64,000 nt of DNA, taken from Cyrtodaria siliqua (Eukaryota; Mollusca; Bivalvia; Adapedonta; Hiatellidae). The stretch is taken from NCBI GenBank assembly GCA_037043455.1, contig JAWPHD010007117.1:1-64000 (forward strand). Reading direction: 5' to 3'. The notes beneath the pieces are model-generated. The model saw only the letters and a list, made by a program, of their open reading frames with translations, did not search any database and was not told the origin of the DNA. Below are positions 29,100 to 60,354 of the stretch, one piece after another (within the stretch, counting starts at the first letter, position 1; each line of letters opens with the position of its first letter). Position numbers and translations under genes: made by a program.

Positions 29100-29118
29100 A
29101 TGAACGTGAAGTTGGCAG
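29100..29118 (+). repeat. Left terminal motif of the palindrome
   Basis: ATGAACGTGAAGTTGGCAG. Identical in reverse complement at 60336-60354, and also present in reverse complement at 46712-46730 inside the LINE remnant. The CAG/TAG tract starts directly from its GGCAG end. Confidence 0.9.
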
Positions 29119-29320
29119 TAGCAGTAGCAGCAGTAGCAGTAGCTACTGCTACTGCTACTGCTACTGCTGTTACTGCCAGCAGTAGCAGCAGTAGTAGTAG
29201 TTACTGCCAGCAGTAGCAGCAGTAGCAGTAGTTACTGTCAGCAGTAGTAGCAGTAGCAGTAGTTACTGCCAGCAGTAGCAGCAGTAGCAGCAGTAGCAGT
29301 AGTTACTGATAGCAGTAGAG
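29119..29320 (+). repeat. Outer CAG/TAG tract with perfect palindromes
   Basis: Alternating GCAGTA and TACTGC hexamers, interspersed with TACTGCCAGCAGTAGCAGCA units. GCAGTAGCAGTAGC directly adjoins GCTACTGCTACTGC, giving a perfect, cruciform-prone palindrome. Reading frames here give Ala/Val/Thr/Ser-rich peptides and are repeat-derived. Confidence 0.95.
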
Positions 29321-29929
29321 CACCATCTCAGTAGGTATATTCATCACAAGTGTTTTTCTTTGCGCATTATATTGTTTCTACTTTCCCACCATCATATTTA
29401 GCAGACAACCACTTTCGCATATTTCGCAACAATCATATGTTTCCTACTGCTATTGCTACTGCTACTGCTACTGCTAACTACTGCCAGCAATAGCAGCAGT
29501 AGCAGTAGCTACTGCCAGCAGTAGCAGCAGTAGAGTCAATAGTCATCTTAATTACGACGATATATGATCATCGATATAAGATATTTCTTTGCGCAAGTAT
29601 GTTGTTTCTACTCTCCCACTATCATGTTTAGCAGACAACCCCTTTCGCATCTTTCGCAACCATCATATGTTGGCGTCTGCTATTGCTACTGCTACTGCTA
29701 CTGCTAACTACTGCCAGCAGTAGCAGCAGTAGCAGTAGCTACTGCCAGCCGTAGCAGCAGTAGCAGTAGCTACTGCCAGCAGTAGCAGCAGTAGAGTCAA
29801 TATCATCTTAATTACGACGATATATGATCATCGGTTTTCTTTGCGCAAGTATGTTGTTTCTACTTTCCCACAATCATGTTTAAAGACAACCCCTTTCGCT
29901 ACTGCTATTGCTACTGCTACTGCTACTGC
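29321..29929 (+). repeat. Three subterminal modules separated by CAG/TAG tracts (left)
   Basis: The module core TTTCTTTGCGCAAGTATGTT, GTTTCTACTYTCCCACYATC, TTTAGCAGACAACC and TTTCGCAAC occurs at about 29330-29440, 29535-29675 and 29785-29900 (spacing about 230 and 252 bp). The second and third also carry CATCTTAATTACGACGATAT and ATGATCATCG. The separating tracts are TACTGC/GCAGTA palindromes. The last tract reads directly into the first monomer's TACTGCTGTATG. Confidence 0.95.
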
Positions 29930-32900
29930 TGTATGATTGAAAGTTCGAAAGTAGTAAAACACGTATGGTCGTCGGATAACGAGTGTTGCCTGCGAGCAGA
30001 TCAACATCATATACATGCTGGTGCAGAGTTTTTTTAAAAGCCTTTCGGTAGTGCTACTAAAATCACACCATTTCAGACCATTTATTACAATTTTGGTTCT
30101 ACTGCTGTATGATTGAAAGTTCGAAAGTAGTCAAAAACACGTCTGGTCGTCGGATGACGAGTGTTGCCGGCGGGCAGATCAACATCATAGACACGCTGGC
30201 GCAGTTTTATATAAAAGCCTTTTGGTAGTGCTACTAAAATCACACCATTTGAGATTGTTTATCGCAGTTTTTGTTCTACTGCTGTAGTACTGAATTCCCA
30301 TAACGATACATTTGAACGTGCGTTTTCTGTCAGATAACGAGTGTTGCCGGCGGGCAGATCAACATCATAGACATGCTGACGCAGTGTTTTTTTTTAAAGA
30401 CTTTTAGTAGTGCTACTAGAATTAACCTATTTGAAATTCGTTATCAACGTTTTAGTTCTACTGCTGTGTTACTGAAGTTTGCACTGAAATATACTCGAAA
30501 TGGCGTTTTTGTCGGGTTTCGGGTGTTGCCGGCGGGCAGATCAATATCATAGACACGCTGGCGCAGCCTTTTTTTTTAAAGCCTTTTGGTAGTGCTACTA
30601 AAATCTCACCATTTCATACCGTTTATCATAGTTTTGGTTCTACTGCTGTATGATTGAAAGTTCGAAAGTAGTCAAAAACACGTCTGGTCGTCGGATGACG
30701 CGTGTTGCAGGCGGGCAGATCAACATCATAGGCACGCTGGCGCAGTTTTACATAAAAGCCTTTTGGTAGTGCTACTAAAATCACACCATTTGAGATTGTT
30801 TATCGCAGTTTTTGTTCTACTGCTGTAGTACTGAATTCGAATAACGGTACATTTGAACGTGCATTTTCTGTCGGATAACGAGTGTTGCCGGCGGGCAGAT
30901 CAACATCATAGACATACTGGCGCAGTGTTTTTTTAAAGACTTTTGGTAGTGCTACTAGAATCAACCTATTTGAAATTCTTTATCAACGTTTTAGTTCTAC
31001 TGCTGTGTTACTGAAGTTTGCACTGAAATATACTCGAAATGGCGTTTTTGTCGGGTTTTGGGTGTTGCCGGCGGGCAGATCAATATCATAGACACGCTGG
31101 CGCAGTGTTTTTTTTAAAGCCTTTTGGTAGTGCTACTAGAATCACACCATTTCAGACCGTTTATCACAGTTTTGGTTCTACTGCTGTATGATTGAAAGTT
31201 CGAAAGTAGTCAAAAACACGTCTGGTCGTCGGATAACGAGTGTTGCCGGCGGGCAGATCAACATCATAGACACGCTTGCGCAGTTTTTTATGAAAGCCTT
31301 TTGGTAGTGCTACTAAAATCACACCATTTGAGATTGTTTATCGCAGATTTTGTTCTACTGCTGTAGTACTGAAGTCGAATAACGGTACATTTGAACGTGC
31401 GTTTTCTGCCGGATAACGAGTGTTGCCGGCGGGCAGATCAACATCATAGACACGCTGGCGCAGTTTTTTTATCAAAGCCTTTTGGTAGTGCTTCTAAAAT
31501 CACACCATTTGAGATTGTTTATCGCAGTTTTTGTTCTACTGCTGTAGTACTGAAGTCGAATAACGGTACATTTGAACGTGAGTTTTCTGCCGGATAACAA
31601 GTGTTGCCGTCGGGCAGATCAACATCATAGACATGCTGGCGCAGTGTTTTTTTTAAAGACTTTTGGTAGTACTACTAGAATAAACCTATTTGTAATTCTT
31701 TAATCAACGTTTTAGTTCTACTGCTGTGTTACTGAAGTTTGCAATGAAATAGACTCGAAATGGCGTTTTTGTCGGGTTTCGGGTGTTGCCGGCGGGCAGA
31801 TCAATATCATAGACACGCTGGCGCAGCGTTTTTTTAAAGTCTTTTGGTAGTGCTACTAAAATCTCACCATTTGAGACCGTTCATCACAGTTTTGGTTCTA
31901 CTGCTGTATGATTGAAAGTTCGAAAGTAGTCAAAAACACGTCTGGTCGTCGGATGACGAGTGTTGCCGGCGGGCAGATCAACATCATAGACACACTGGCG
32001 CAGTTTTTTATAAAAGCCTTTTGGTAGTGCTACTAAAATCACATAATTTGAGATTGTTTATCGCAGTTTTTGTTCTACTGCTGTAGTACTGAAGTCGAAT
32101 AACGGTACATTTGAACGTGCGTTTTCTGTCGGATAACGAGTGTTACCGGCGGGCAGATCAACATCATAGACATGCTGGCGCAGTGTTTTTTTTAAAGACT
32201 TTTGGTAGTGCTACTAGAATCAACCTATTTGAAATTCTTTATCAACGTTTTAGTTCTACTGCTGTGTTACTGAAGTTTGCACTGAAATAGACTCGAAATG
32301 GCGTTTTTGTCGGGTTTCGGGTGTTTCCGGCGGGCAGATCAATATCATAGACACGCTGGCGCAGTATTTTTTTAAAGCCTTTCGGTAGTGCTACTAAAAT
32401 CACACCATTCCAGACCGTTTATCACAGTTTTGGTTCTACTGCTGTATGATTGAAAGTTCAAAAGTAGTCAAAAACACGTCTGGTCGTCGGATAACGAGTG
32501 TTGCCGGCGGGCAGATCAACATTATAGACACGCTGGCGCAGTTTTTTTTATAAAAGCCTTTTGGTAGTGGTACTAAAATCACATCATTTGAGATTGTTTA
32601 TCGCAGTTTTTGTTCTATTGCTGTAGTACTGAAGTCGAATAACGGTACATTTGAACGTGCGTTTTCTGCCGGATAACGAGTGTTGCCGGCGGGGAGATCA
32701 ACATCATAGACATGCTGGCGCGTGTTTTTTAAAAGACCTTTGGTAGTGCTACTAGAATCAACCTATTTGAAATTCTTTATCAACGTTTTAGTTCTACTGC
32801 TGTGTTACTGAAGTTTGCACTGAAATAGACTCGAAATGGCGTTTTTGTCGGGTTTCGGGTGTTGCCGGCGGGCAGATCAATATCATAGACACGCTGGCGC

Positions 32901-35900
32901 AGTGTTTTTTTAAAGCCTTTTAGTAGTGCTACTAAAATCTCACCATGTGAGACCGTTCATCACAGTTTTGGTTCTACTGCTGTATGATTGAATGTTCGAA
33001 AGTAGTCAAAAACACGTCTGGTCGTCGGATAACGAGTGTTGCCGGCGGGCAGATCAACATCATAGACACGCTGGCGCAGTTATTTTTATAAAAGCCATTT
33101 GGTAGTGCTACTAAAATCACATCATTTGAGATTGTTTATCGCAGTTTTTGTTCTACTGCTGTAGTACTGAAGTCGAATAACGGTACATTTGAACGTGCGT
33201 TTTCTGTCGGATAACGAGTGTTGCCGGCGGGCAGATCAACATCATAGACATGCTGGCGCAGTGTTTTTTAAAAGACTTTTGGTAGTGCTACTAGAATCAA
33301 CCTATTTGAAATTCGTTATCAACGTTTTAGTTCTACTGCTGTGTTACTGAAGTTTGCACTGAAATATACTCGAAATGGCGTTTTTGTCGGGTTTCGGGTG
33401 TTGCCGGCGGGCAGATCAATATCATAGACACGCTGGCGCAGTGTTTTTTTAAAGCCTTTTGGTAGTGCTACTAAAATCACACCATTTCAGACCGTTTATC
33501 ACAGTTTTGGTTCTACTGCTGTATGATTGAAAGTTCGAAAGTAGTCAAAAACACGTCTGGTCGTCGGATAACGAGTGTTGCCGGCGGGCAGATCAACATC
33601 ATAGACACGCTGGCGCAGTTTTTTATAAAAGCCTTTTGGTAGTGCTACTAAAATCACACCATTTGAGATTGTTTATCGCAGTTTTTGTTCTACTGCTGTA
33701 GTACTGAAGTCGAATAACGGTACATTTGAACGTGCGTTTTCTGCCGGATAACGAGTGTTGCCGGCGGGAAGATCAACATCATAGACACGCTGGCGCAGTT
33801 TTTTATCAAAGCCTTTTGGTAGTGCTACTAAAATCACACCATTTGAGATTGTTTATCGCAGTTTTTTGTTCTACTGCTGTAGTACTGAAGTCGAATAACG
33901 GTACATTTGAACGTGAGTTTTCTGCCGGATAACAAGTGTTGCCGTCGGGCAGTTCAACATCATAGACATGCTGGCGCAGTGTTTTTTTTAAAGACTTTTT
34001 GTAGTACTACTACAATAAACCTATTTGTAATTTTTTAATCAACGTTTTAGTTCTACTGCTGTGTTACTGAAGTTTGCAATGAAATAGACTCGAAATGGCG
34101 TTTTTGTCGGGTTTCGGGTGTTGCCGGCGGGCAGATCAATATCATAGACACGCTGGCGTAGCGTTTTTTTTAAAGTCTTTTGGTAGTGCTACTAAAATCT
34201 CACCATTTGAGACCGTTCATCACAGTTTTGGTTCTACTGCTGTATGATTGAAAGTTCGAAAGTAGTCAAAAACACGTCTGGTCGTCGGATGACGAGTGTT
34301 GCCGGCGGGCAGATCAACATCATAGACACGCTGGCGCAGTTTTTTATAAAAGCCTTTTGGTAGTGCTACTTAAATCACATAATTTGAGATTGTTTATCGC
34401 AGTTTTTGTTCTACTTCTGTAGTACTGAAGTCGAATAACGGTACATTTGAACGTGCGTTTTCTGTCGGATAACGAGTGTTGCCGGCGGGCAGATCAACAT
34501 CATAGACATGCTGGCGCCGTGTTTTTTTAAAGACTTTTGGTAGTGCTACTAGAATCAACCTATTTGTAATTCTTTACCAACGTTTTAGTTCTACTGCTGT
34601 GTTACTACTGAAGTTTGCACTGAAATAGAATCGAAATGGCGTTTTTGTCGGGTTTCGGGTGTTGCCGGCGGGCAGATCAATATCATAGACACGCTGGCGC
34701 AGTGTTTTTTTTAAAGCCTTTTGGTAGTGCTACTAAAATCGCACCATTTCAGACCGTTTATCACAGTTTTGGATCTACTGCTGTATGACTGAAAGTTCGA
34801 AAGTAGTCAAAAACACGTCTGGTCGTCGGATGACGATTGTTGCCGGCGGGCAGATCAACATCATAAACACGCTAGCGCAGTTTTTTTATAAAAGCCTTTT
34901 GGTAGTGCTACTAAAATCACACCATTTGAGATTGTTTATCGCAGTTTCTGTTCTACTGCTGTAGTACTGAAGTCGAATAACATTATTTGAACGTGCGTTT
35001 TCTGTCGGATAACGAGTGTTGCCGGCGGGCAGATCAACATCATAGACATGCTGGCGCAGTGTTTTTTTTATAGACCTTTGGTAGTGCTACTAGAATCAAC
35101 CTATTTGAAATTCTTTATCAACGTTTTAGTTCTACTGCTGTGTTATTGAAGTTTGCATTGAAATAGATTCGTAATGGCGTGTTTGTCGGGTTTCGGGTGT
35201 TGCCGGCGGGCAGATCAATATCATAGACACGCTGGCGCAGTGTTTTTGTAAAGCCTTTTGGTAGTGCTACTAAAATTACACCATTTGAATCCGTTCATCA
35301 CAGTTTTGGTTCTATTGCTGTATGATTGAAAGTTCAAAAGTAGTCAAAAACACGTCTGGTCGTCGGATAACGATTGTTGCCGGCGGGCAGATCAACATCA
35401 TAAACACGCTGGCGCAGTTTTTTTATAAAAGCCTTTTGGTAGTGCTACTAAAATCACACCATTTGAGATTGTTTATCGCAGTTTCTGTTCTACTGCTGTA
35501 GTACTGAAGTCGAATAACATTATTTGAACGTGCGTTTTCTGTCGGATAACGAGTGTTGCCGGCGGGCAGATCAACATCATAGACATGCTGGCGCAGTGTT
35601 TTTTTTTATAGACCTTTGGTAGTGCTACTAGAATCAACCTATTTGAAATTCTTTATCAACGTTTTAGTTCTACTGCTGTGTTATTGAAGTTTGCATTGAA
35701 ATAGACTCGTAATGGCGTGTTTGTCGGGTTTCGGGTGTTGCCGGCGGGCAGATCAATATCATAGACACGCTGGCGCAGTGTTTTTGTAAAGCCTTTTGGT
35801 AGTGCTACTAAAATTACACCATTTGAATCCGTTCATCACAGTTTTGGTTCTATTGCTGTATGATTGAAAGTTCAAAAGTAGTCAAAAACACGTCTGGTCG

Positions 35901-38900
35901 TCGGATAACGAGTGTTGCCGGCGGGCAGATCAACATCATAGACACGCTGGCGCAGTTTTTTTATAAAAACCTTTTGGTAGTGCTACTAAAATCACACCAT
36001 TTGAGATTGTTTATCGCAGTTTTTGTTCTACTGCTGTAGTACTGAAGTCGAATAACGGTACATTTGAACGTGCGTTTTCTGTCGGATAACGAGTGTTGCT
36101 GGCGGGTAGATCAACATCATAGACATGCTGGCTCAGTGTTTTTGTAAAGACTTTTGGTAGTGTTACTAGAATCAACCTATTTGAAATTCTTTATCAACGT
36201 TTTAGTTCTACTGCTGTATTACTGAAGTTTGCACTGAAATAGACTCGAAATGGAGTTTTTGTCGGGTTTCGGGTGTTGCCGCCGGGCAGATCAATATCAT
36301 AGACACGCTTGCGCAGTGTTTTTTTTAAAGCCTTTTGGTAGTGCTACTAAAATCACACCATTCCAGACCGTTTATCACAGTTTTGGTTCTACTGCTGTAT
36401 GATTGAAAGTTCAAAATTAGTCAAAAACACGTCTGGTCGTCGGATAACGAGTGTTGCCGGCGGGCAGATCAACATCATAGACACGCTGGGTGCAGTTTTT
36501 TTTATAAAAGCCCTTTGGTAGTGCTACTAAAATCACATCATTTGAGATTGTTTATCGCAGTTTTTGTTCTACTGCTGTAGTACTGAATTCGAATAACGGT
36601 ACATTTGAACGTGCGTTTTCTGCCGGATAACGAGTGTTGCCGGCGGGCAGATCAACATGATAGACATGCTGGCGCGTGTTTGTTTAAAAGACCTTTGGTA
36701 GTACTACTAGAATCAACCTATTTGAAATTCTTTATTACCGTTTTAGTTCTACTGCTGTGTTACTGAAATTTGCACTGAAATAGACTCGAAATGGCGTTTT
36801 TGTCGGGTTTCGGGTGTTGCCGGCGGGCAGATCAATATCATAGACACGCTGGCGCAGTGTTTTTTTTAAAGCCTTTTGGTAGTGCTACTAAAATCTCACC
36901 ATTTGAGACCGTTCATCACAGTTTTGGTTCTACTGCTGTATGATTGAAAGTTCGAAAGTAGTCAAAAACACGTCTGGTCGTCGGATAACGAGTGTTGCCG
37001 GCGGGCAGATCAACATCATAGACACGCTGGCGCAGTTTTTTTATAAAAACCTTTTGGTAGTGCTACTAAAATCACACCATTTGAGATTGTTTATCGCAGT
37101 TTTTGTTCTACTGCTGTAGTACTGAAGTCGAATAACGGTACATTTGAACGTGCGTTTTCTGTCGGATAACGAGTGTTGCCGGCGGGTAGATCAACATCAT
37201 AGACATGCTGGCTCAGTGTTTTTGTAAAGACTTTTGGTAGTGTTACTAGAATCAACCTATTTGAAATTCTTTATCAACGTTTTAGTTCTACTGCTGTATT
37301 ACTGAAGTTTGCACTGAAATAGACTCGAAATGGAGTTTTTGTCGGGTTTCGGGTGTTGCCGCCGGGCAGATCAATATCATAGACACGCTTGCGCAGTGTT
37401 TTTTTAAAGCCTTTTGGTAGTGCTACTAAAATCACACCATTCCAGACCGTTTATCACAGTTTTGGTTCTACTGCTGTATGATTGAAAGTTCAAAATTAGT
37501 CAAAAACACGTCTGGTCGTCGGATAACGAGTGTTGCCGGCGGGCAGATCAACATCATAGACACGCTGGGTGCAGTTTTTTTTATAAAAGCCCTTTGGTAG
37601 TGCTACTAAAATCACATCATTTGAGATTGTTTATCGCAGTTTTTGTTCTACTGCTGTAGTACTGAATTCGAATAACGGTACATTTGAACGTGCGTTTTCT
37701 GCCGGATAACGAGTGTTGCCGGCGGGCAGATCAACATGATAGACATGCTGGCGCGTGTTTGTTTAAAAGACCTTTGGTAGTACTACTAGAATCAACCTAT
37801 TTGAAATTCTTTATTACCGTTTTAGTTCTACTGCTGTGTTACTGAAGTTTGCACTGAAATAGACTCGAAATGGCGTTTTTGTCGGGTTTCGGGTGTTGCC
37901 GGCGGGCAGATCAATATCATAGACACGCTGGCGTAGCGTTTTTTTTAAAGTCTTTTGGTAGTGCTACTAAAATCTCACCATTTGAGACCGTTCATCACAG
38001 TTTTGGTTCTACTGCTGTATGATTGAAAGTTCGAAAGTAGTCAAAAACACGTCTGGTCGTCGGATGACGAGTGTTGCCGGCGGGCAGATCAACATCATAG
38101 ACACGCTGGCGCAGTTTTTTATAAAAGCCTTTTGGTAGTGCTACTTAAATCACATAATTTGAGATTGTTTATCGCAGTTTTTGTTCTACTTCTGTAGTAC
38201 TGAAGTCGAATAACGGTACATTTGAACGTGCGTTTTCTGTCGGATAACGAGTGTTGCCGGCGGGCAGATCAACATCATAGACATGCTGGCGCCGTGTTTT
38301 TTTAAAGACTTTTGGTAGTGCTTCTAGAATCAACCTATTTGTAATTCTTTACCAACGTTTTAGTTCTACTGCTGTGTTACTACTGAAGTTTGCACTGAAA
38401 TAGAATCGAAATGGCGTTTTTGTCGGGTTTCGGGTGTTGCCGGCGGGCAGATCAATATCATAGACACGCTGGCGCAGTGTTTTTTTTAAAGCCTTTTGGT
38501 AGTGCTACTAAAATCGCACCATTTCAGACCGTTTATCACAGTTTTGGATCTACTGCTGTATGACTGAAAGTTCGAAAGTAGTCAAAAACACGTCTGGTCG
38601 TCGGATGACGATTGTTGCCGGCGGGCAGATCAACATCATAAACACGCTAGCGCAGTTTTTTTATAAAAGCCTTTTGGTAGTGCTACTAAAATCACACCAT
38701 TTGAGATTGTTTATCGCAGTTTCTGTTCTACTGCTGTAGTACTGAAGTCGAATAACATTATTTGAACGTGCGTTTTCTGTCGGATAACGAGTGTTGCCGG
38801 CGGGCAGATCAACATCATAGACATGCTGGCGCAGTGTTTTTTGTATAGACCTTTGGTAGTGCTACTAGAATCAACCTATTTGAAATTCTTTATCAACGTT

Positions 38901-41900
38901 TTAGTTCTACTGCTGTGTTATTGAAGTTTGCATTGAAATAGATTCGTAATGGCGTGTTTGTCGGGTTTCGGGTGTTGCCGGCGGGCAGATCAATATCATA
39001 GACACGCTGGCGCAGTGTTTTTGTAAAGCCTTTTGGTAGTGCTACTAAAATTACACCATTTGAATCCGTTCATCACAGTTTTGGTTCTATTGCTGTATGA
39101 TTGAAAGTTCAAAAGTAGTCAAAAACACGTCTGGTCGTCGGATAACGATTGTTGCCGGCGGGCAGATCAACATCATAAACACGCTGGCGCAGTTTTTTTA
39201 TAAAAGCCTTTTGGTAGTGCTACTAAAATCACACCATTTGAGATTGTTTATCGCAGTTTCTGTTCTACTGCTGTAGTACTGAAGTCGAATAACATTATTT
39301 GAACGTGCGTTTTCTGTCGGATAACGAGTGTTGCCGGCGGGCAGATCAACATCATAGACATGCTGGCGCAGTGTTTTTTTTTATAGACCTTTGGTAGTGC
39401 TACTAGAATCAACCTATTTGAAATTCTTTATCAACGTTTTAGTTCTACTGCTGTGTTATTGAAGTTTGCATTGAAATAGACTCGTAATGGCGTGTTTGTC
39501 GGGTTTCGGGTGTTGCCGGCGGGCAGATCAATATCATAGACACGCTGGCGCAGTGTTTTTGTAAAGCCTTTTGGTAGTGCTACTAAAATTACACCATTTG
39601 AATCCGTTCATCACAGTTTTGGTTCTATTGCTGTATGATTGAAAGTTCAAAAGTAGTCAAAAACACGTCTGGTCGTCGGATAACGAGTGTTGCCGGCGGG
39701 CAGATCAACATCATAGACACGCTGGCGCAGTTTTTTTATAAAAACCTTTTGGTAGTGCTACTAAAATCACACCATTTGAGATTGTTTATCGCAGTTTTTG
39801 TTCTACTGCTGTAGTACTGAAGTCGAATAACGGTACATTTGAACGTGCGTTTTCTGTCGGATAACGAGTGTTGCTGGCGGGTAGATCAACATCATAGACA
39901 TGCTGGCTCAGTGTTTTTGTAAAGACTTTTGGTAGTGTTACTAGAATCAACCTATTTGAAATTCTTTATCAACGTTTTAGTTCTACTGCTGTATTACTGA
40001 AGTTTGCACTGAAATAGACTCGAAATGGAGTTTTTGTCGGGTTTCGGGTGTTGCCGCCGGGCAGATCAATATCATAGACACGCTTGCGCAGTGTTTTTTT
40101 AAAGCCTTTTGGTAGTGCTACTAAAATCACACCATTCCAGACCGTTTATCACAGTTTTGGTTCTACTGCTGTATGATTGAAAGTTCAAAATTAGTCAAAA
40201 ACACGTCTGGTCGTCGGATAACGAGTGTTGCCGGCGGGCAGATCAACATCATAGACACGCTGGGTGCAGTTTTTTTTATAAAAGCCCTTTGGTAGTGCTA
40301 CTAAAATCACATCATTTGAGATTGTTTATCGCAGTTTTTGTTCTACTGCTGTAGTACTGAATTCGAATAACGGTACATTTGAACGTGCGTTTTCTGCCGG
40401 ATAACGAGTGTTGCCGGCGGGCAGATCAACATGATAGACATGCTGGCGCGTGTTTGTTTAAAAGACCTTTGGTAGTACTACTAGAATCAACCTATTTGAA
40501 ATTCTTTATTACCGTTTTAGTTCTACTGCTGTGTTACTGAAATTTGCACTGAAATAGACTCGAAATGGCGTTTTTGTCGGGTTTCGGGTGTTGCCGGCGG
40601 GCAGATCAATATCATAGACACGCTGGCGCAGTGTTTTTTTTAAAGCCTTTTGGTAGTGCTACTAAAATCTCACCATTTGAGACCGTTCATCACAGTTTTG
40701 GTTCTACTGCTGTATGATTGAAAGTTCGAAAGTAGTCAAAAACACGTCTGGTCGTCGGATAACGAGTGTTGCCGGCGGGCAGATCAACATCATAGACACG
40801 CTGGCGCAGTTTTTTTATAAAAACCTTTTGGTAGTGCTACTAAAATCACACCATTTGAGATTGTTTATCGCAGTTTTTGTTCTACTGCTGTAGTACTGAA
40901 GTCGAATAACGGTACATTTGAACGTGCGTTTTCTGTCGGATAACGAGTGTTGCCGGCGGGTAGATCAACATCATAGACATGCTGGCTCAGTGTTTTTGTA
41001 AAGACTTTTGGTAGTGTTACTAGAATCAACCTATTTGAAATTCTTTATCAACGTTTTAGTTCTACTGCTGTATTACTGAAGTTTGCACTGAAATAGACTC
41101 GAAATGGAGTTTTTGTCGGGTTTCGGGTGTTGCCGCCGGGCAGATCAATATCATAGACACGCTTGCGCAGTGTTTTTTTAAAGCCTTTTGGTAGTGCTAC
41201 TAAAATCACACCATTCCAGACCGTTTATCACAGTTTTGGTTCTACTGCTGTATGATTGAAAGTTCAAAATTAGTCAAAAACACGTCTGGTCGTCGGATAA
41301 CGAGTGTTGCCGGCGGGCAGATCAACATCATAGACACGCTGGGTGCAGTTTTTTTTATAAAAGCCCTTTGGTAGTGCTACTAAAATCACATCATTTGAGA
41401 TTGTTTATCGCAGTTTTTGTTCTACTGCTGTAGTACTGAATTCGAATAACGGTACATTTGAACGTGCGTTTTCTGCCGGATAACGAGTGTTGCCGGCGGG
41501 CAGATCAACATGATAGACATGCTGGCGCGTGTTTGTTTAAAAGACCTTTGGTAGTACTACTAGAATCAACCTATTTGAAATTCTTTATTACCGTTTTAGT
41601 TCTACTGCTGTGTTACTGAAGTTTGCACTGAAATAGACTCGAAATGGCGTTTTTGTCGGGTTTCGGGTGTTGCCGGCGGGCAGATCAATATCATAGACAC
41701 GCTGGCGCAGTGTTTTTTTAAAGCCTTTTGGTAGTGCTACTAAAATCTCACCATTTGAGACCGTTCATCACGGTTTTGGTTCTACTGCTGTATGATTGAA
41801 AGTTCGAAAGTAGTCAAAAACACGTCTGGTCGTCGGATAACGAGTGTTGCCGGCGGGCAGATCAACACCATAGACACGCTGGCGCAGTTTTTTTATCAAA

Positions 41901-48436: not shown

Positions 48437-48992
48437 AAACGGAATGTAGCGACACAGCCAAACAGCTCTGTTATTGAGAGTTCTGAAAAACTTGGAAAAA
48501 GGTGAAAGAATTATCAAAATCGGATGATAAACCAAAAAGATATGACCATTTAAAGGTTGTTCTAAAACGAATATTGGAGTCGCCATTTTTAGAACTATGA
48601 CGTCATAGTTCCATATTACCATATATGGACTATTGATAAATATCATTTAAAATGAAGAAAATCACTGCAAATGAACAATTTTTTTTACTGGTCATATAAA
48701 GCATTATTGCCATTAAGTATTAAAATATTTTTCATACAGTTGCTGTCATTTTTTCCCCTATAAATCAGTAAATTTCATATTTATAAATATTCCATATATG
48801 GTCATTTAGAACCGTGATGTCATAGCTCTCAAAATGGCCGCTTCCATATCCGTTTCAACAGAAACTTCAAATGATCATATCTTCTTTGTTTATTATCCGA
48901 TTATGATAATTCTTTCACCTTTATTCAAATTTTTTCAGAACTCTCAATTATAAAGATGGTTTGTCTGTGGCGCTACATTTCCTTTAAGCAAA
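48437..48992. mobile_element. Large imperfect inverted repeat (foldback/MITE), ~200-bp arms
   Basis: The left arm (48437-48633) contains GAATGTAGCGACACAG, TTGAGAGTTCTGAAAAA, AAAGGTGAAAGAATTATCA, AGATATGACCATTTAAAGGT and ACTATGACGTCATAGTTC. The right arm (48789-48992) carries the reverse complement of each in mirrored order, for example TGATAATTCTTTCACCTTT and TTTTTTCAGAACTCTCAA. The ~155-bp loop is AT-rich. A transcript across it would form a long hairpin. Short frames on both strands overlap it and are not genes. Confidence 0.85.
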
Positions 48993-50318
48993 CGTCCATA
49001 AAAGGATATCATAAAAGGGTATTCTTTGATAAAAAAAATCTTAAAGTAGTGGTGTCCTCGTTCCGTTAGTTTGTTGAAGATTTCGCAAGAACAGCGACAT
49101 TAGTTTCTAAAAAGATTTGTTAAAGTGTCTCCTATATTTAAATTAAACATAAATCAGCCCTGTGATGGAGAAACACGTAACTCCAGGGCCATTGTAGATT
49201 AAAGCTCAGCACTATATGCAAAATGTGACTGTAGTCAAAACTGTTCTTTTGTCAAAATCGTGAAAAAGTAAAACGTGTAAACACGATAACATTTATCTTA
49301 GCCATTTTCTCTGTGTGTGTCTGTTAAATGTGAGTGGTGAAGTAAAAAAAACATTTTCATGAATATAGTAGAGTTGTATAACATTTGTCCCCAGGTCGTT
49401 TTCACATGTAAGTGTGTGTTGTTTTAACATTTGTGTAAGATTTACATTTAAAGTAACATTGCCTTACATTTGTGACAGTTTCACAAACCGTTTTCGCGTT
49501 CAAGCTTCCTACATGCAGATCCACAATCTTATTGCAATACCGATACATAACATAAAACTATGATAGCTATATTTGATTCTCCGGGCTTGGTACTTCATGA
49601 GATTAGAACCAAGTAGGCATTGTTAAGTCCTTTTAAAGCAAAACTGTTTAAGCAATGCATCTTCACCGAAACTGGTGATTTTTATAAACCATCCAGAGTA
49701 GTCTCATTTCTGCGTTTACGTATGGACACCGTGGTATGGAATACAAATTAAATTAGTATATGGGACTGGGGAGTGTCTTGGTCAATTAAGAATTGATTTT
49801 CATTTTTGCAGCGTTAATGCGGTTTGAAGCACTGGTCTTAAATGGCAAATTTGGCTAATTATTGTAAGTTTGTCATTCGCTACTACCGTTTAGAACCGCA
49901 TTACGCCTAAACAACGTGCGTCGTGGAACTTACCATTTACTATCCGCGTTTAAAACTGCATAAAAGCTAAACAATTAAGATCAATTATTATATAAACTGT
50001 ATTTGCCCGTCGCTATAGTACCAACAATAACGTGCCTTGAGAAAATAATAATGATAACAAAGGCAAGAGAGACAACTACCGTCAGGGTATTTTCAGACAG
50101 TGGAATACACTCTTTCTATTGAGACACATTCGATGCGCGCGCATTAGCTTCGATTCTTTGAAAAGTGAAGTTTACTCGAAATCGGACGCTTTTTTCAAAT
50201 GAATATAATAATTACTCAATACATTTTACTTTGCGGCTTATTTTCCTCGCACAAATGTACAGTCGAGTTTCAAATCGGAAAACAAGTACCAAGAATGTGT
50301 TGTTATCTTTAGGGCATA
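48993..50318. other. Spacer with a minor direct repeat, no gene seen
   Basis: AT-rich. At 49880-49990 two degenerate direct copies (CTACTACCGTTTAGAACCGC with CGCCTAAACAA, then TACTATCCGCGTTTAAAACT with AAGCTAAACAA) lie about 60 bp apart. Nothing else recognised. Confidence 0.5.
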
Positions 50319-50412
50319 GGGTTGTTACCCTTAGTGCAGGTCAAAATCGTGTTACCTTTAGTGCAGCAGTTGTTACCTTTAGTGCAAACATTTTTATTAC
50401 CTTTAGTGTAGT
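50319..50412 (+). repeat. GTTACCTTTAGTGCA short repeats, cluster 1
   Basis: Four irregularly spaced copies of TTACCYTTAGTGCAG-type sequence. A second cluster lies at 50945-51020. Confidence 0.85.
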
Positions 50413-50644
50413 TTTACAATTTCTTCACTTCAAAAGGTAGAAAGAAATATATAGTCCAATTCTATATTCTTTAACTTTATTTCTGCATGCTACCAACTAT
50501 AATGGTGAATTAATATTTACAACAGTTTACTAATAATGATAGTGTCTCTTTCACATAACTACTGATCTCTTGTTAGTCCAGGTAAAAACCACGGAAAAAG
50601 CCACGAAGAAAAAGCCACGAACAATGAAAACCCTCCCTTTTTAT

Positions 50645-50860
50645 AAGGTCTCTTCCAAATAAGGGGTTAGCATGGTCGTAAATATTAGCATGCTAACTCA
50701 TCAATCTTATAGCATCTACAAATAAGGAATGCTAACACATAAATCATGTAGCATTAGCATTAGCCTGGTTCATAGAGCATCTCCCAAATAAGGGATGCTA
50801 ACCCATAAATTATGATCATTATCATTAGCCTGTGTTAGCCCTGTAGAGAGATACACATCT
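50645..50860 (+). repeat. ~68-bp degenerate repeat, 3 units
   Basis: Units with CAAATAAGGRATGCTAAC and CATAAATYATGTAGCATTAG start near 50653, 50718 and 50786. The second and third are the best matched. Confidence 0.7.
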
Positions 50861-50944
50861 AGATTTATGGTGCTAACCGAAGACAGACATAATGTCCTCA
50901 GTAACCAGGCTTGAATACTGGTACGTGTACAAAATTACAACAGT

Positions 50945-51020
50945 AGGTTGTTACCTTTAGTCTCAAAAGTGTTACCTTTAGTGAAGTCTGTTACCTTTAG
51001 TGCAGTTGTTACCTTTAGCG
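50945..51020 (+). repeat. GTTACCTTTAGTGCA short repeats, cluster 2
   Basis: Four copies of GTTACCTTTAGTG-type sequence, related to 50319-50412. The two clusters bracket the 68-bp repeat block. Confidence 0.85.
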
Positions 51021-51094
51021 TTGCAACAGTCGTTAACCACTTGGACATGGCGACGGCACCCCACACTCATAAAACTTTAATTAGTTTTTCCTTG

Positions 51095-51362
51095 ATAAAT
51101 TGATGCACATATACATTTTGGGGCCATATGCATGCGTATACTGTTGACTTTTATGCAGTATGGGGTCAATGGGTTTAAGGTTAAGGTTACAATGACCTGA
51201 TAATTAAACACATTGTCCGCTCTATAACTCAAGACTGCTAGCCATATGCATTAAACGTTCTCGATAGACAGGCCATGGAGAAGGGATGAACCTATACATT
51301 TTGGGGTCAATAAGTGCAAGGTAAAGGTTACCATTACCTGATAATGAAATACCTCCTCCGTT
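51095..51362 (+). repeat. Two degenerate copies of a ~185-bp repeat
   Basis: ATACATTTTGGGGCCATATG with GGTTACAATGACCTGATAAT, and ATACATTTTGGGGTCAATAA with GGTTACCATTACCTGATAAT, are diverged copies just outside the right array edge. Confidence 0.65.
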
Positions 51363-51615
51363 CTATGACAGCAGTAGAAAGTAGAACAAAAACTGCTATA
51401 AACAATCTCAAGTGGGGTGGTATTAGTAGGCTTGAAATCCAGAGAGACTGCATATCTGTGATGTTGATCGTCCCGCCGGCAACACCCGAAACCCGATGAC
51501 CAGACGTGTTTTTGACTACTTTCGAACATTCAATCATACATAAGTAGAACAAAAACTGCGATAAACAATCTCAAATGGTGTGATTTTAGTAGCACTACCA
51601 AAAGGCTTTGATAAA
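51363..51615 (-). repeat. Inner edge of the right monomer array
   Basis: Reverse-complement monomers. The innermost one (51363-51500) is markedly diverged (CTGTGATGTTGATCGTCCCG, CGAAACCCGATGACCAGACG, a C-to-A type hybrid), as expected at a satellite edge. The next one is interrupted at 51615/51616 by the element below. Confidence 0.9.
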
Positions 51616-52903
51616 CAAGAGGTCAATGACCTTGAAGCTCTACTGATTGATTTTGATTTCAGGAAGTAGTCGCTACAAACTTGTTTTTTGAAAAAATATT
51701 TTTAGCCGTGGCGGCCATCTTGAATTTCCGGCCGACCTGAAATTTTGCTAGGATCAATTAGACATCAAGAGCAACATTCCTGTGAAGTTTCATAAAAATC
51801 CGTCAAGTAGTTTCAGAGGAGTAGTCGCTACAAGTTTACATTATATAACTCTATGTAGACAAAGATGGCCACTGGCAGCCATGTTTGACGTCGAATCAAA
51901 ATAATGTTCGACTCGGATAACCATCATGTCATGCTGATCATTTTAGAAAAAGTCCCATATCAATATCACTTATAGTTTTCAAGAAGTGGTCGCTACAAAC
52001 TAATTTTTTTAAAATCTATTTTTAGCTGTGGCGGCCATCTTGAATTTCTGGCCGATCTGAAATTTTCCTAGGATCAATTAAGACATTAAGAGCAACATTC
52101 CTGTAAAGATTCATGAAAATCCGCCAAGTAGTTTCAGAGGAGTAGTCGCTAAACGTTTTTAATTTATATCTCTATGTAAACAAAGATGGCCGCTGGCAGC
52201 CATGTTTAAAGTTGAATCAAAACGATTTTTGACAAGGACCAACATCATGTCATGCTGATAATTTTAGAAAAAGTCCCATATCAATATCACTTATAGTTTT
52301 CAAGAAGTAGTCGCTACAAACTTGTATTTTGAAAATATATTTTTAGCCGTGGCGGCCATCTTGAATTTCCGGCCGACCTGAAATTTTGCTAAGATCAATT
52401 AGACATCAAGAGCAACATTCCTGTGAAGTTTCACGAAAATCCGTCAAGTAGTTTCAGAGGAGTAGTCTCTAAAACTTTTCATTATATAAGTCTATGTAAA
52501 CAAAGATGGCCGCTGACAGCCATGATTTACGTCGAATAAAAACGATTTAAGGCAAGGCCAACATCATGTCATGCTGATCATTTTAGAAAAAGTCCCATAT
52601 CAATATCACTTAGAGTTTTCAAGAAGGAGTCGCTACAAACTTGTTTATTAAAAACATATTTTTAGATTTGGCGGCCATCTTGGATTTCACATCAACATGA
52701 ATTTTTGCTAGGATCAACTAGACTTCATGGGCAACATTTCTGTAAAGTTTCATGAAAATCCATTCCGTAGTTACAGAGGAGTAGTCGCTATAAAAAAAAG
52801 TTTACGGACGGACAGACAGACGGACAGACAGACAGACGGACAGACGGACGACGGACGCCGCACCACGGCATAAGCTCTGCTGATCTCTGATCAGTCGAGC
52901 TAA
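51616..52903 (+). mobile_element. Pearl/HINE-like element inserted in a monomer
   Basis: The monomer reads ...GGCTTTGATAAA, then foreign sequence CAAGAGGTCAATGACCTTGA..., then ...AACTGCGCCAGCGTG. Uninterrupted copies (for example 53441-53462) read GGCTTTGATAAAAAACTGCG, so the insertion is clean to within an A-run. The interior has about 3.5 tandem units of ~321 bp (starts near 51665, 51985, 52306 and 52626), each beginning AGTAGTCGCTACAAACTTG. It ends with an ACGG/ACAG tract (52803-52850) and a terminal hairpin GAGCT-type stretch before TAAAAA. This matches bivalve pearl-type elements and Helentron-associated (HINE) layouts. Mobility would need a helper in trans. No coding region. Confidence 0.75.
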
Positions 52904-55900
52904 AAACTGCGCCAGCGTGTCTATGATGTTGATCTGCCCGCCGGCAACACTCGTTATCCGACGACCAGACGTGTTTTTGACTACTTTCGAACTTTCAATC
53001 ATACAGCAGTAGAACCAAAACTGTGATGAACGGTCTGAAATGGTGTGATTTTAGTAGCACTACCAAACGGCTTTAAAAAAACACTGCGCCAGCGTGTCTA
53101 TGATATTGATCTGCCCGCCGGCAACACCCGAAACCCGACAAAAACGCCATTTCGAGTCTATTTCAGTGCAAACTTCAGTAACACAGCAGTAGAACTAAAA
53201 CGTTGATAAAGAATTTCAAATAGGTTGATTCTAGTAGCACTACCAAAGGTCTTTAAAAAAACACTGCGCCAGCATGTCTATGATGTTGACCTGCCCGCCG
53301 GCAACACTCGTTATCCGACAGAAAACGCTAGTTCAAATGTACCGTTATTCGATTTCAATACTACGGCAGTAGAACAAAAACTGCGATAAACTAACTCAAA
53401 TGGTGTGATTTTAGTAGCACTACCAAAAGGCTTTGATAAAAAACTGCGTCAGCGTGTCTATGATGTTGATCTGCCCGCCGGCAACACTCGTTATCCGACG
53501 ACCAGACGTGTTTTTGACTACTTTCGAACTTTCAATCATACAGCAGTAGAACCAAAACTGTGATGAACAGTCTCAAATGGTGAGATTTTAGTAGCACTAC
53601 CAAAAGGCTTTAAAAAAACTGCGTCAGCGTGTCTATGATGTTGATCTGCCCGCCTGCAACACCCGAAACCCGACAAAAACGCCATTTCGAGTCTATTTCA
53701 GTGCAAACTTCAGTAACACAGCAGTACAACTAAAACGATGATAAAGAATTTCAAATACGTTGATTCTAGTAGCACTACCAAAGGTCTTTTAAAAAACACT
53801 GCGCCAGCATATCTATGATGTTGATCTGCCCGCCGGCAACACTCGTTATCCGGCAGAAAACGCACGTTCAAATGTACCGTTATTCGACTTCAGTACTACA
53901 GCAGTAGAAAAAAACTGCGATAAACAATCTCAAATGGTGTGATTTTAGTAGCACTACCAAAAGGCTTTTATAAAAAACTGCGCCAGCGTGTCTATGATGT
54001 TGATCTGCACGCCGGCAACACTCGTTATCCGACGACCAGACGTGTTTTTGACTACTTTCGAACTTTCAATCATACAGCAGTAGAACCAAAACTGTGATAA
54101 ACGGTCTAAAATGATGTGATTTTAGTAGCACTACCAAAAGGCTTTAAAAAAACTGCGTCAGCGTGTCTATGATGTTGATCTGCCCGCCTGCAACACCCGA
54201 AACCCGACAAAAACGCCATTTCGAGTCTATTTCAGTGCAAACTTCAGTAACACAGCAGTAGAACTAAAACGATGATAAAGAATTTCAAATACGTTGATTC
54301 TAGTAGCACTACCAAAGGTCTTTTAAAAAACACTGCGCCAGCATATCTATGATGTTGATCTGCCCGCCGGCAACACTCGTTATCCGGCAGAAAACGCACG
54401 TTCAAATGTACCGTTATTCGACTTCAGTACTACAGCAGTAGAACAAAAACTGCGATAAACAATCTCAAATGGTGTGATTTTAGTAGCACTACCAAAAGGC
54501 TTTTATAAAAAACTGCGCCAGCGTGTCTATGATGTTGATCTGCCCGCCGGCAACACTCGTTATCCGACGACCAGACGTGTTTTTGACTACTTTCGAACTT
54601 CCAATCATACAGCTGTAGAACCAAAACTGTGATAAACGGTCTAAAATGGTGTGATTTTAGTACCACTACCAAAAGGCTTTAAAAAAACACTGCGCCAGCA
54701 TGTCTATGTATTGATCTGCCCGCCCGCAACACCCGAACCCCGACAAAAACGCCATTTCGAGTCTATTTCAGTGCAAATTTCAGTTACACAGCAGTAGAAC
54801 TAAAACGTTGATAAAGAATTTCAAATATATTGATTCTAGTAGCACTACCAAAGGTCTTTAAAATAACACTGCGCCAGCATGTCTATGATGTTGACCTGCC
54901 CGCCGGCAACACTCGTTATCTGACAGAAAACGCACGTTCAAATGTACCGTTATTCGACTTCAGTACTACAGCAGTAGAACAAAATCTGCGATAAACTATC
55001 TCAAATGGTATGATTTTAGTAGCACTACCAAAAGGCTTTTATAAAAAACTGCGCCAGCGTGTCTATGATGTTGATCTGCCTGCCGGCAACACTCGTTATC
55101 CGACGACCAGACGTGTTTTTGACTACTTTCGAACATTCAATCATACAGCAGTAGAACCAAAACTGTGATAAACGGTCTGAAATGGTGTGATTTTAGTAGC
55201 ACTACCAAAAGGCTTTAAAAAAACAATGCGCCAGTGTGTCTATGATATTGATATGCCCGCCGGCAACACCCGAAACCCGACAAAAATGCCATTTCGAGTA
55301 TATTTCATTGCAAACTTCAGTAACACAGCAGTAGAACTAAAACGTTGATAAAGAATTTCAAATAGGTTGATTCTAGTAACACTACCAAAATTCTTAAAAA
55401 AAAACACTGCGCCAGCATGTCTATGATGTTGATCTGCCCGCCGGCAACACTCGTTATCCGACAGAAAACGCACGTTCAAATGTACCGTTATTCTATTTCA
55501 GTACTACAGCAGTAGAACAAAAACTGCGATAAACAATCTCAAATGGTGTGATTGTAGTAGCACTACCAAAAGGCTTTTATAAAAAACTGCGTCAGCGTGT
55601 CTATGATGTTGATCTGCCCGCCGGCAACACTCGTTATCCGACGACCAGACGTGTTTTTGACTACTTTCGAACTTTCATTCATACAGCAGTAGAACCAAAA
55701 CTGTGATAAACGGTATGAAATGGTGTGATTTTAGTAGCACGACCAAAAGGCTTAAAAAAAACAATGCGCCAGCATGTCTATGGTATTGATCTGCCCGCCG
55801 GCAACACCCGACACGACAAAAACGCCATTTCGAGTCTATTTCAGTGCAAACTTCAGTAACTAAAACTAAAAGTAGAACTAAAACGTTGATAAAGAATTAG

Positions 55901-58900
55901 AAATAGGTTAATTCTAGTAGCACTACCAAAGTCATTAAAAAAACACTGCGCCAGCATGTCTATGATGTTGATCTGCCCGCCGGCAACACTCGTTATCCGA
56001 CAGAAAACGTACGTTCAAATGTACCGTTATTCGACTTCAGTACTACAGCAGTAGAACAAAAACTGCGATAAACAATCTCAAATGGTATGATTTTAGTAGC
56101 ACTACCAAAAGGCTTTTATAAAAAACTGCGCCAGCGTGTCTATGATGTTGATCTGCCTGCCGGCAACACTCGTTATCCGACGACCAGACGTGTTTTTGAC
56201 TATTTTCGAACATTCAATCATACAGCAGTAGAACCAAAACTGTGATAAACGGTTTGAAATGGTGTGATTTTAGTAGCACTACCAAAAGGCTTTAAAAAAA
56301 CACTGCGCCAGCGTGTCTATGATATTGATCTGCCCGCCGGCAACACCCGAAACCCGACAAAAACGCGATTTCGAGTCTATTTCAGTGCAAATTTCAGTAA
56401 CACAGCAGTAGAACTAAAACGTTGATGAAGAATTAGAAATAGGTTTATTCTAGTAGCACTACCAAAGTCATTAAAAAAACACTGCGCCAGCATGTCTATG
56501 ATGTTGATCTGCCCGCCGGCAACACTCGTTATCCGACGACCAGATGTGTTTTTGACTACTTTTGAACTTTCAATCATACAGCAGTAGAACCAAAACTTTG
56601 ATGAACGGTCTCAAATGGTGAAATTTTAATAGCACTACCAAAAGGCTTTAAAAAAAACTGCACCAGCGTGTCTATGATATTGATCTGCTCGCCTGCAACA
56701 CCCGAAACCCGACAAAAACGCCATTTCGAGTCTATTTCAGTGCAAACTTCAGTAACACAGCAGTAGAACTAAAACGATGATAAAGAATTTCAAATACGTT
56801 GATTCTAGTAGCACTACCAAAGGTCTTTTAAAAAACACTGCGCCAGCATATCTGTGATGTTGATCTGCCCGCCGGCAACACTCGTTATCCGACAGAAAAC
56901 GTACGTTCAAATGTACCGTTATTCGACTTCAGTACTACAGCAGTAAAACAAAAACTGCGATAAACTATCTCAAATAGTGTGATTTTAGTAGCACTACCAA
57001 AAGGCTTTTATAAAAAACTGCGCCAGCGTGTCTATGATGTTGATCTGCCCGCCGGCAACACTCGTTATCCGACGACCAGATGTGTTTTTGACTACTTTTG
57101 AACTTTCAATCATACAGCAGTAGAACCAAAACTGTGATGAACGGTCTCAAATGGTGAAATTTTAATAGCACTACCAAAAGGCTTTAAAAAAAACTGCACC
57201 AGCGTGTCTATGATATTGATCTGCGCGCCTGCAACACCCGAAACCCGACAAAAACGCCATTTCGAGTCTATTTCAGTGCAAACTTCAGTAACACAGCAGT
57301 AGAACTAAAACGATGATAAAGAATTACAAATACGTTGATTCTAGTAGCACTACCAAAGGTCTTTTAAAAAACACTGCGCCAGCATATCTATGATGTTGAT
57401 CTGCCCGCCGGCAACACTCGTTATCCGGCAGAAAACGCACGTTCAAATGTACCGTTATTCGACTTCAGTACTACAGCAGTAGAACAAAAACTGCGATAAA
57501 CAATCTCAAATGATGTGATTTTAGTAGCACTACCAAAAGGCTTTTATAAAAAACTGCGCTAGCGTGTCTATGATATTAATCTGCCCGCCGGCAACACTCG
57601 TTATCCGACGACCAGACGTGTTTTTGACTACTTTCGAACTTTCAATCATACAGCAGTAGAACCAAAACTGTGATAAACGGTCTAAAATGGTGTGATTTTA
57701 GTAGCACTACCTAAAGGCTTTAAAAAAACACTGCGCCAGCGTGTCTATGCATTGATCTGCCCGCCCGCAACACCCGAACCCCGACAAAAACGCCATTTCG
57801 AGTCTATTTCAGTGCAAATTTCAGTAACACAGCAGTAGAACTAAAACGTTGATAAAGAATTTCAAATAGATTGATTCTAGTAGCACTACCAAAGGTCTTT
57901 AAAAAAACACTGCGCCAGCATGTCTATGATGTTGATCTGCCCGCCGGCAACACTCGTTATCCGACAGAAAACGCACGTTCAAATGTACCGTTATTCGACT
58001 TCAGTACTACAGCAGTAGAACAAAAACTGCGATAAACAATCTCAAATGATGTGATTTTAGTAGCACTACCAAAAGGCTTTTATAAAAAACTGCGCTAGCG
58101 TGTCTATGATATTAATCTGCCCGCCGGCAACACTCGTTATCCGACGACCAGACGTGTTTTTGACTACTTTCGAACTTTCAATCATACAGCAGTAGAACCA
58201 AAACTGTGATAAACGGTCTAAAATGGTGTGATTTTAGTAGCACTACCTAAAGGCTTTAAAAAAACACTGCGCCAGCGTGTCTATGCATTGATCTGCCCGC
58301 CCGCAACACCCGAACCCCGACAAAAACGCCATTTCGAGTCTATTTCAGTGCAAATTTCAGTAACACAGCAGTAGAACTAAAACGTTGATAAAGAATTTCA
58401 AATAGATTGATTCTAGTAGCACTACCAAAGGTCTTTAAAAAAACACTGCGCCAGCATGTCTATGATGTTGATCTGCCCGCCGGCAACACTCGTTATCCGA
58501 CAGAAAACGCACGTTCAAATGTACCGTTATTCGACTTCAGTACTACAGCAGTAGAACAAAAACTGCGATAAACAATCTCAAATGGTATAATTTTAGTAGC
58601 ACTACCAAAAGGCTTTTATAAAAAACTGCGCCAGCGTGTCTATGATGTTGATCTGCCTGCCGGCAACACTCGTTATCCGACGACCAGACGTGTTTTTGAC
58701 TATTTTCGAACATTCAATCATACAGCAGTAGAACCAAAACTGTGATAAACGGTCTGAAATGGTGTGATATTAGTAGCACTACCAAAAGGCTTTTATAAAA
58801 AACTGCGCCAGCGTGTCTATGATGTTGATCTGCCCGCCGGCAACACTCGTTATCCGACGACCAGACGTGTTTTTGACTACTTTCGAACTTTCAATCATAC

Positions 58901-59600
58901 AGCAGTAGAACCAAAACTGTGATAAACGGTCTAAAATGGTATGATTTTAGTAGCACTACCAAAAGGCTTTAAAAAAACACTGCGCCAGCGTGTCTATGTA
59001 TTGATCTGCCCTCCGGCAACACCCGAACCCCGACAAAAACGCCATTTCGAGTCTATTTCAGTGCAAACTTCAGTAACACAGCAGTAGAACTAAAACGTTA
59101 ATAAAGAATTTCAAATATGTTGATTCTAGTAGCACTACTAAAAGTCTTTAAAAAAACACTGCGCCAGCATGTCTATGATGTTGATCTGCCCGCCGGCAAC
59201 ACTCGTTATCCGACAGAAAACGCATGTTCAAATGTACCGCTGTACAGACTTTAGTACTACAGCAGTAGAACAAAAACTGCGATAAACAATCTCAAATGGT
59301 GTGATTTTAGTAGCAATACCAAAAGGCTTTAAAAAAGCACTGCGCCAGCGTGTCTATGTGGTTGATCTGCCCGCCGGCAACACCCGAAACCCGACGACCA
59401 GACGTGTTTTTGACTACTTTCGAACTTTCAATCATACAGCAGTAGAACCAAAATTGTGATACACGGTCTGAAATGGTGTGATTTTAGTAGCACTACCAAA
59501 AGGCTTTTAAAAAACGCTGCGCCAGCGTGTCTATGATGTTGATCTGCCCGCCGGCGACACTCGTTATCCGACGACCAGACGTGTTTTAATACTTTCAATC
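52904..59600 (-). repeat. Right monomer array, inverted, about 37 copies
   Basis: Reverse complement of the left array: each monomer shows CTGCGCCAGCRTGTCTATGA, GATCTGCCCGCCGGCAACAC and TACAGCAGTAGAAC, with A, B and C types in the mirrored order. A recent one-trimer duplication is visible (CTGCGCTAGCGTGTCTATGA at 57553 and 58088). The outer edge (59560-59600) runs into the CAG/TAG tracts. Confidence 0.97.
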
Positions 59601-60335
59601 AAACAGCAGTAGCAGTAGCAATAGCAGTAGCAAACATATGACGGTTGCGAAAGGGGTTGTCTGTTAAACATGATTGTGGGAAAGTAGAAACAACATACTT
59701 GCGCAAAGAAAACCGATGATCATATATCGTCGTAATTAAGATGATTTTGACTCTACTGCTGCTACTGCTGGCAGTAGCTACTGCTACTGCTGCTACTGCT
59801 GGCAGTAGTTAGTAGTAGCAGTAGCAGTAGCAGTAGCAATAGCAGAAGCAAACATATGATGGTTGCGAAAGATGCGAAAGGGGTTGTCTGCTAAACATGA
59901 TGGTGGGAAATTAGAAACAACATAGTTGCGCAAAGAAATATCATATATAGATGATCATATATCGTCGTAATTAAGATGACTATTGACTCTACTACTGCTA
60001 CTGCTGGCAGTAGCTACTGCTACTGCTGCTACTGCTGGCAGTAGTTAGCAGTAGCAGTAGCAGTAGCAGTAGGAAACATATGAGTGTTGCGAAATATGCG
60101 AAAGGGGTTGTCTGCTAAATATGATGGTGGGAAAGTAGAAACAACATAATGCGCAAAGAAAACACTTGCGATGAATATACCTAGCAGTAATTACTGCTAC
60201 TGCTGCTACTGCTGGCAGTAACTACTGCTACTGCTGCTACTGCTGGCAGTAACTACTGCTACTGCTGTTACTACTGCTGGCAGTAACTACTGCTACTGCT
60301 GCTACTGCTGGCAGTAACAGCAGTAGCAGCAGCTA
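59601..60335 (-). repeat. Three subterminal modules and CAG/TAG tracts (right)
   Basis: Reverse-complement counterparts of 29119-29929. Module cores (GTGGGAAAGTAGAAACAACA, TTGCGCAAAGAAA) are at about 59640-59735, 59865-59975 and 60090-60175 (spacing about 227 and 224 bp). They are separated by GCAGTAGC/GCTACTGC palindromic tracts. The module nearest each end carries the same variant (GGTATATTCATCRCAAGTG), showing mirrored order. Confidence 0.95.
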
Positions 60336-60354
60336 CTGCCAACTTCACGTTCAT
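60336..60354 (-). repeat. Right terminal motif of the palindrome
   Basis: CTGCCAACTTCACGTTCAT, the exact reverse complement of 29100-29118. A 7-bp TAAACAA occurs at 60354-60360 and at 29090-29096, but it is not symmetric about the ends, so a target duplication is not established. Confidence 0.9.

Follow-up and report, generated by a model that had tools for sequence, protein, structure and literature searches.

We identified a ~31-kb structure at positions 29100-60354 of a 64,000-nucleotide stretch of Cyrtodaria siliqua DNA (the window), which is flanked by identical inverted ends and whose arms are formed by satellite repeats. It is best explained as a giant, non-autonomous Foldback-like DNA element, a reading to which we give a probability of about 0.5; the Foldback-like layout holds in detail. 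Read inward from either side, a 19-bp end is followed by CAG/TAG tracts, then by three subterminal modules and then by an array of ~180-bp monomers of classes A, B and C. The locus has long terminal inverted repeats made of tandem repeats, as Foldback-like elements do, and it also has exact inverted ends without mirrored flanking DNA. The left arm measures 17.1 kb and the right arm 9.0 kb (51380-60354), the latter including a 1.3-kb nested insert. The first-pass annotation had described the component order as preserved over more than 9 kb on both sides; the order itself was recovered, but ~9.0 kb is reached on the right only if the nested insert is counted. The outer parts of the two arms are as follows.

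29100..29118, plus strand: left 19-bp end, exact inverse of 60336-60354
29119..29323, plus strand: left outer CAG/TAG tract, itself partly palindromic
29324..29900, plus strand: three left subterminal modules with CAG/TAG tracts between them, 95.7, 95.1 and 98.1% identical to their right counterparts
59588..60335, minus strand: three right subterminal modules and CAG/TAG tracts
60336..60354, minus strand: right 19-bp end, exact inverse of 29100-29118

The same annotation had claimed identical 19-bp ends in opposite orientation, mirrored CAG/TAG tracts and mirrored triplets of subterminal modules, and all three were found in the window. The 19-mer ATGAACGTGAAGTTGGCAG lies on the plus strand at the left end and its exact inverse on the minus strand at the right end. 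When up to three mismatches were allowed, ATGAACGTGAAGTTGGCAG matched the window at three places, all of them exact, compared with a mean of 0.01 in 100 shuffles. The exact inverted match between the ends extends to 23 bp, after which the CAG/TAG tracts diverge in arrangement. Outside the 19-bp ends, no contiguous similarity of the flanks was found, and the flanking DNA is not mirrored. Mirrored flanks were rejected on this ground; one inverted match between the flanks (73 bp, 78%, 27396-27468 versus 60960-61031) belongs to a dispersed repeat and lies at unequal distances from the ends. In the left flank, this repeat occupies 27301-27482 and 28254-28436, and a hairpin-like self-inverted sequence is present at 60435-60548, ~80 bp outside the right end. 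The exact inverted ends between flanks without contiguous similarity argue for a Foldback-like element. They also bear on a palindromic duplication, in which a satellite locus would have been copied in inverted orientation by a break, a fold-back or a template switch, without transposition. Homology between the arms extends exactly to the 19-bp end and breaks off there at an identical base left and right, so that such a duplication would need two coincident breakpoints; we consider this explanation possible but doubtful.

Tracts of CAG/TAG were present on both sides, with three modules per side. Corresponding modules were 95.7% (116 columns), 95.1% (142) and 98.1% (106) identical between the arms, whereas left modules were only 86-91% identical to non-corresponding right modules, which again argues for a Foldback-like element. 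Since each module is closest to its counterpart, either the tripling took place before the arms separated, or exchange between the arms has kept the counterparts alike; the one-to-one likeness could stem from such later exchange. It was also considered whether the modules are diverged satellite monomers, and this was rejected because only 7-12-base matches were found. As single-stranded DNA, both ends showed strong folding, with z values of -5.8 (29100-29245) and -6.6 (60209-60354); folding was weaker in a module tract (z = -3.0) and absent at the outer edge of the left array (z = 0.2). The pairing of modules touches on a further explanation, namely that two half-elements or solo arms were inserted separately, or were joined by ectopic recombination between copies, as in a Galileo-like chimera. 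One-to-one pairing at 95-98% speaks against this origin, which we hold to be improbable, but would fit two copies of one family equally well.

The satellite arrays were resolved into the following features.

29923..46185, plus strand: left satellite array, an A-B-C higher-order repeat of ~180-bp monomers with 91 core motifs
~34120..41660, plus strand: a 3.77-kb block of 21 monomers and its near-identical neighbour (L24-L44 and L45-L65)
51380..51618, minus strand: innermost right-arm array, decayed
52902..59587, minus strand: right satellite array of the same A-B-C monomers, with 38 core motifs

In total, 91 core motifs were counted in the left arm and 39 in the right (38 in the main right array), and 127 monomers (90 left, 37 right) could be classed. 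The three monomer classes are 22-26% apart and differ by 3-6% within a class, and their order is C-B-A, repeated, in both arms, which bears out the mirrored A-B-C arrays that had been read from the sequence before. As in satellite DNA, the monomers form a long homogeneous tandem array with higher-order structure. The order is broken at three points on the left (all BB) and at two on the right (CC and CA), and these irregularities differ in kind and position between the arms. That the arms are exact mirror copies along the array was rejected, as the irregular monomers have no correspondence.

In each arm, the array is entered at position 116 of a class C monomer, and its edge shows the same 2-base (CA) loss, which occurs in 0/43 class C monomers; at this site, 42 of the 43 read CAAAAA and the remaining one CAAAA. 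The common entry position and the shared loss show that the arms descend from one ancestral arm, which comprised a 19-bp end, a CAG/TAG tract, three modules and an A-B-C array, and the loss is the strongest single sign of this common ancestry. The arms later diverged in length and through local duplications. This shared edge argues for a Foldback-like element; it also counts against two half-elements, although two family copies would account for it equally well. Common descent from one arm is, in turn, what a palindromic duplication would give.

We then compared the monomers of the two arms. Across the three classes, 7 alignment columns have different majority states in the two arms, of which 1 is a base change and 6 are gaps. 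With recent-duplicate monomers dropped beforehand (21 left, 3 right), differentiation between the arms was small, with Fst values of 0.072, 0.044 and 0.031 and permutation p values of 0.003, 0.009 and 0.045, respectively. The near-equal array consensus in both arms (Fst 0.03-0.07) supports the Foldback-like reading, whereas the fact that the arms are measurably differentiated at all counts against it and would suit two half-elements. The slight but measurable differentiation suggests that recent exchange between the arms has been limited. Mean divergence of monomers from the consensus was 2.7% on the left and 3.1% on the right. The outermost monomers L01, R02 and R01 diverged by 7.5, 7.3 and 5.7% (ranks 1, 2 and 9 of 127), and the inner monomer R21 is as divergent as R02. 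Unequal arm lengths had been attributed to satellite expansion after the arms formed, and this proposal was supported by the common entry point and the near-equal consensus, and further by the differing copy numbers and the recent local duplications.

The two 3.77-kb blocks of the left array are nearly perfect repeats of each other: 19/21 monomer pairs are identical in their aligned bases, the other 2/21 differ by 0.5%, and an exact run of 1614 bp was found at an offset of 3774. This duplication can be a recent unequal exchange or an assembly effect. It is the observation that would favour an assembly join, or a collapse or expansion of satellite reads, as the source of the whole palindrome. 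Against such an artefact, the arms differ in modules, monomers and irregularities, and the nested insert is present in one arm only, indicating that the arms are not a single sequence assembled twice; we regard this explanation as very unlikely.

Between the arms lies a centre of 5.2 kb, with the nested insert beside it in the right arm.

~46186..51379: centre, consisting at least in part of remnants of old mobile elements
48435..48987: self-inverted (MITE-like) sequence, matching its own inverse at 75% across 576 columns
~51619..52901: insert nested within the right array, comprising a 321-bp repeat in 3.5 copies and an ACGG/ACAG tail

The left array ends at 46185 at monomer position 30, while the right array fades near 51380 at approximately position 120, and thus the inner arm edges are not mirrored. 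A palindromic duplication is disfavoured by this centre and by the out-of-phase inner edges; the differing edges would fit two half-elements. No stop-free stretch of 100 codons occurs in the 5.2-kb centre, and a Pfam scan of three centre ORFs returned no significant family; no MULE or THAP/P transposase was seen in these ORFs. That this partial protein search of the centre found no transposase counts against a Foldback-like element, and is in keeping with a palindromic duplication. A GTTACCTTTAGTG repeat forms two clusters in the centre (50320-50409 and 50946-51021), which are possibly the ends of another nested element. The ~1.28-kb nested insert interrupts the right array near monomer position 49, and the array continues beyond it from about that position, indicating that the insert arrived later.

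Two short sequences directly outside the ends were inspected for signs of movement.

29091..29099, plus strand: 9-mer AAACAAAAG next to the left end, a candidate for a decayed target-site duplication
60355..60363, plus strand: 9-mer AAACAATGG next to the right end, a candidate for a decayed target-site duplication

These 9-mers match at 7/9 positions, the best fraction among lengths 4-13, which argues for a Foldback-like element. Among random junction pairs drawn from non-array window DNA, 0.27% reached 7/9 at length 9, and among 29,916 background 9-mers, 0.45% matched the left 9-mer and 0.29% the right 9-mer this well. Conversely, the match is imperfect, and 3.1% of random pairs pass at any length of 7-11 with two mismatches, which weighs against the Foldback-like reading; the imperfect match also favours a palindromic duplication. 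The 9-mers are suggestive of an old 9-bp duplication, and transposition of the 31-kb structure as a unit is weakly supported. Of the giant Foldback-like element that the first-pass annotation had put forward, the layout stood and mobility is a weakly supported proposal, given that no transposase was found in the centre ORFs scanned and that the flanking 9-mers agree at only 7/9 positions. Searches for relatives in viral-contig and genome-contig collections, which are not meant for eukaryotic genomes, gave 0 loci, and six pieces of end and monomer had no match in the text of the literature collection searched.

The third exact match of the 19-mer, which was absent from the first-pass annotation, falls in the centre within a broken LINE.

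~46530..47640, minus strand: broken LINE, from the YADD region of the reverse transcriptase to a C-terminal motif
46712..46730, minus strand: the 19-bp end again, in a third exact copy that lies in frame at the SSH-x-ExGR motif of the LINE

A read-through of this LINE, assembled from pieces with X at the breaks, was used as the query. Of 684 candidates, 42 were relatives at E<=1e-3, the best at 9.1e-56, and 34 of these 42 had a precomputed reverse transcriptase domain (PF00078). The third copy sits at the SSH....ExGRW motif and is translated in the LINE frame as SSH-ER-EVGR-R; H followed by four residues and ExGRW is found at this site in 30/42 relatives, and the motif is absent in the other 12/42. 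Because the 19-mer lies on a conserved LINE motif, it is most likely native LINE sequence, and the 19-bp ends of the element were probably derived from LINE coding sequence. The reverse direction, in which the LINE sequence was altered to match the end of the element, is unlikely. The motif is shortened by 6 bp, which is no proof of direct descent, since the end starts two bases before the likely missing codons. The nine bases following the 19-mer were 7/9 alike when compared by eye, which may be a chance match in a CAG/TAG-like tract. A copy of the end within a central LINE is unexpected for an ordinary transposon end and, in this respect, speaks against a Foldback-like element. A fuller scenario, which we offer tentatively and think rather unlikely as a whole, is that a Foldback-like element took over coding sequence of a LINE, at SSH....ExGRW, as its 19-bp recognition sequence. 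It would later have brought a satellite of three monomer classes into its arms, which grew to 17 and 9 kb, and would be both birthplace and carrier of a higher-order satellite.

Among known systems, the Foldback (FB) element of Drosophila melanogaster likewise has long inverted repeats made of tandem repeats and makes a 9-bp target duplication, but it is far smaller, and its monomers are tens of bp rather than ~180 bp as here. The ends of Helitrons and Helentrons are not inverted repeats of each other, whereas the two ends of this element are perfect 19-bp inverted repeats. This stands against a pair of Helentron-like elements of the oyster type, with satellite repeats in the centre, which we judge extremely improbable. 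In the part of the oyster study drawn on here (PMC7492417), Helentrons have a short palindrome near the 3′ end, and a mobile element carries arrays of 140-180-bp monomers. The ~180-bp monomer is close to these, and this similarity favours such a pair; but the longest array in the clusters studied there has 29 monomers, compared with ~90 here, and the layout is one central array between two modules, with no long inverted repeats made of the array (PMC7492417).

The closest relative compared is Tetris, a foldback transposon of Drosophila virilis, for which we rely on part of the published account (PMC4079207). Like this locus, Tetris has a flanking domain, tandem repeats (~220 bp in Tetris) within its inverted repeats, a variable non-coding middle and a repeat number that is unequal between the arms, and its repeats have expanded to satellite arrays with as many as 66 copies (PMC4079207). 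Three complete copies of Tetris are described, besides others that are rearranged, with duplications of 8-10 bp, and its layout together with these duplications supports the Foldback-like reading here. In contrast, its inverted repeats reach at most 1,735 bp (PMC4079207), whereas the arms here measure 17.1 and 9.0 kb, exceeding those of Tetris five- to tenfold in length, and contain three monomer classes in a higher-order repeat, unlike those of Tetris as presented there. Similarly, the sections used on Tm1, the Mutator/Foldback elements of root-knot nematodes (PMC3169594), report composite inverted repeats with variable tandem-repeat numbers and unequal arms, as here, and 8-10 bp duplications, mostly of 9 bp, in 45/53 complete elements; these composite repeats and mostly 9-bp duplications are further support for a Foldback-like element. 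Unlike here, the Tm1 repeats are 13-15 bp in length, and a Mutator-like transposase is known, encoded by an element of 2,593 bp (PMC3169594). Galileo, of the P superfamily, also has long, internally repetitive inverted repeats, but these are ~0.3-1.2 kb, its transposase is known, and its flanking sequences are 7 bp, according to the portions of PMC3688188 and PMC3573991 covered. The tandem repeats of the Galileo inverted repeats were shown to contain extra transposase binding sites (PMC3688188, in part), and chimeric copies occur, bounded by different flanking 7-mers (PMC3573991, in part), which lends support to two half-elements as the origin of this locus. A foldback with arms this long was not named in the titles and abstract openings on foldbacks, satellites, bivalves and molluscs that were searched, a set with little coverage of subscription papers, and the parts of PMC5139131 and PMC6431247 consulted hold nothing on foldbacks of this size. 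In its size, its higher-order satellite in the arms and its LINE-like end, this is an unusual variant of the Foldback layout.

If the structure is a Foldback-like element, then, by analogy with Galileo and Tetris, a transposase from another copy would have bound the 19-bp ends and perhaps the subterminal modules as well, and the element would have inserted via a staggered cut of ~9 bp. Unequal exchange may afterwards have expanded the arm repeats into satellite arrays. Given its size and decay, the present copy has probably lost the ability to move and would now act as a satellite locus.

The window also holds several other repeats, and some of the repeats in it would seem molluscan in appearance. 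A 22-bp satellite, TAACACCACCTTTAACCTGCTG, with strong strand asymmetry occupies 1-7999 and extends to the left end of the window. A small palindrome at 25912-26398 has arms that are also tandem repeats (21-bp units in both orientations). Short tandem arrays lie at 14544-15469 (47-bp unit), 18001-18217 (53 bp), 23045-24218 (43 bp) and 61819-62215 (20/40 bp), and a dispersed repeat of ~380 bp is present in three copies (9896-10264, 12688-13048 and 16712-17093), which are 70-75% alike, with one inverted.

With regard to the origin and spread of satellites, the Tetris study, in the part drawn on, suggested that Foldback arms are able to seed satellites (PMC4079207). With satellite-length arms that carry a fixed higher-order repeat between intact inverted ends, a single locus may here display an intermediate stage of this process. 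Confirmation that the end is LINE-derived would reveal how transposons can acquire an end from another element. Finally, a 31-kb palindrome is likely to be a hotspot for inversion and breakage.
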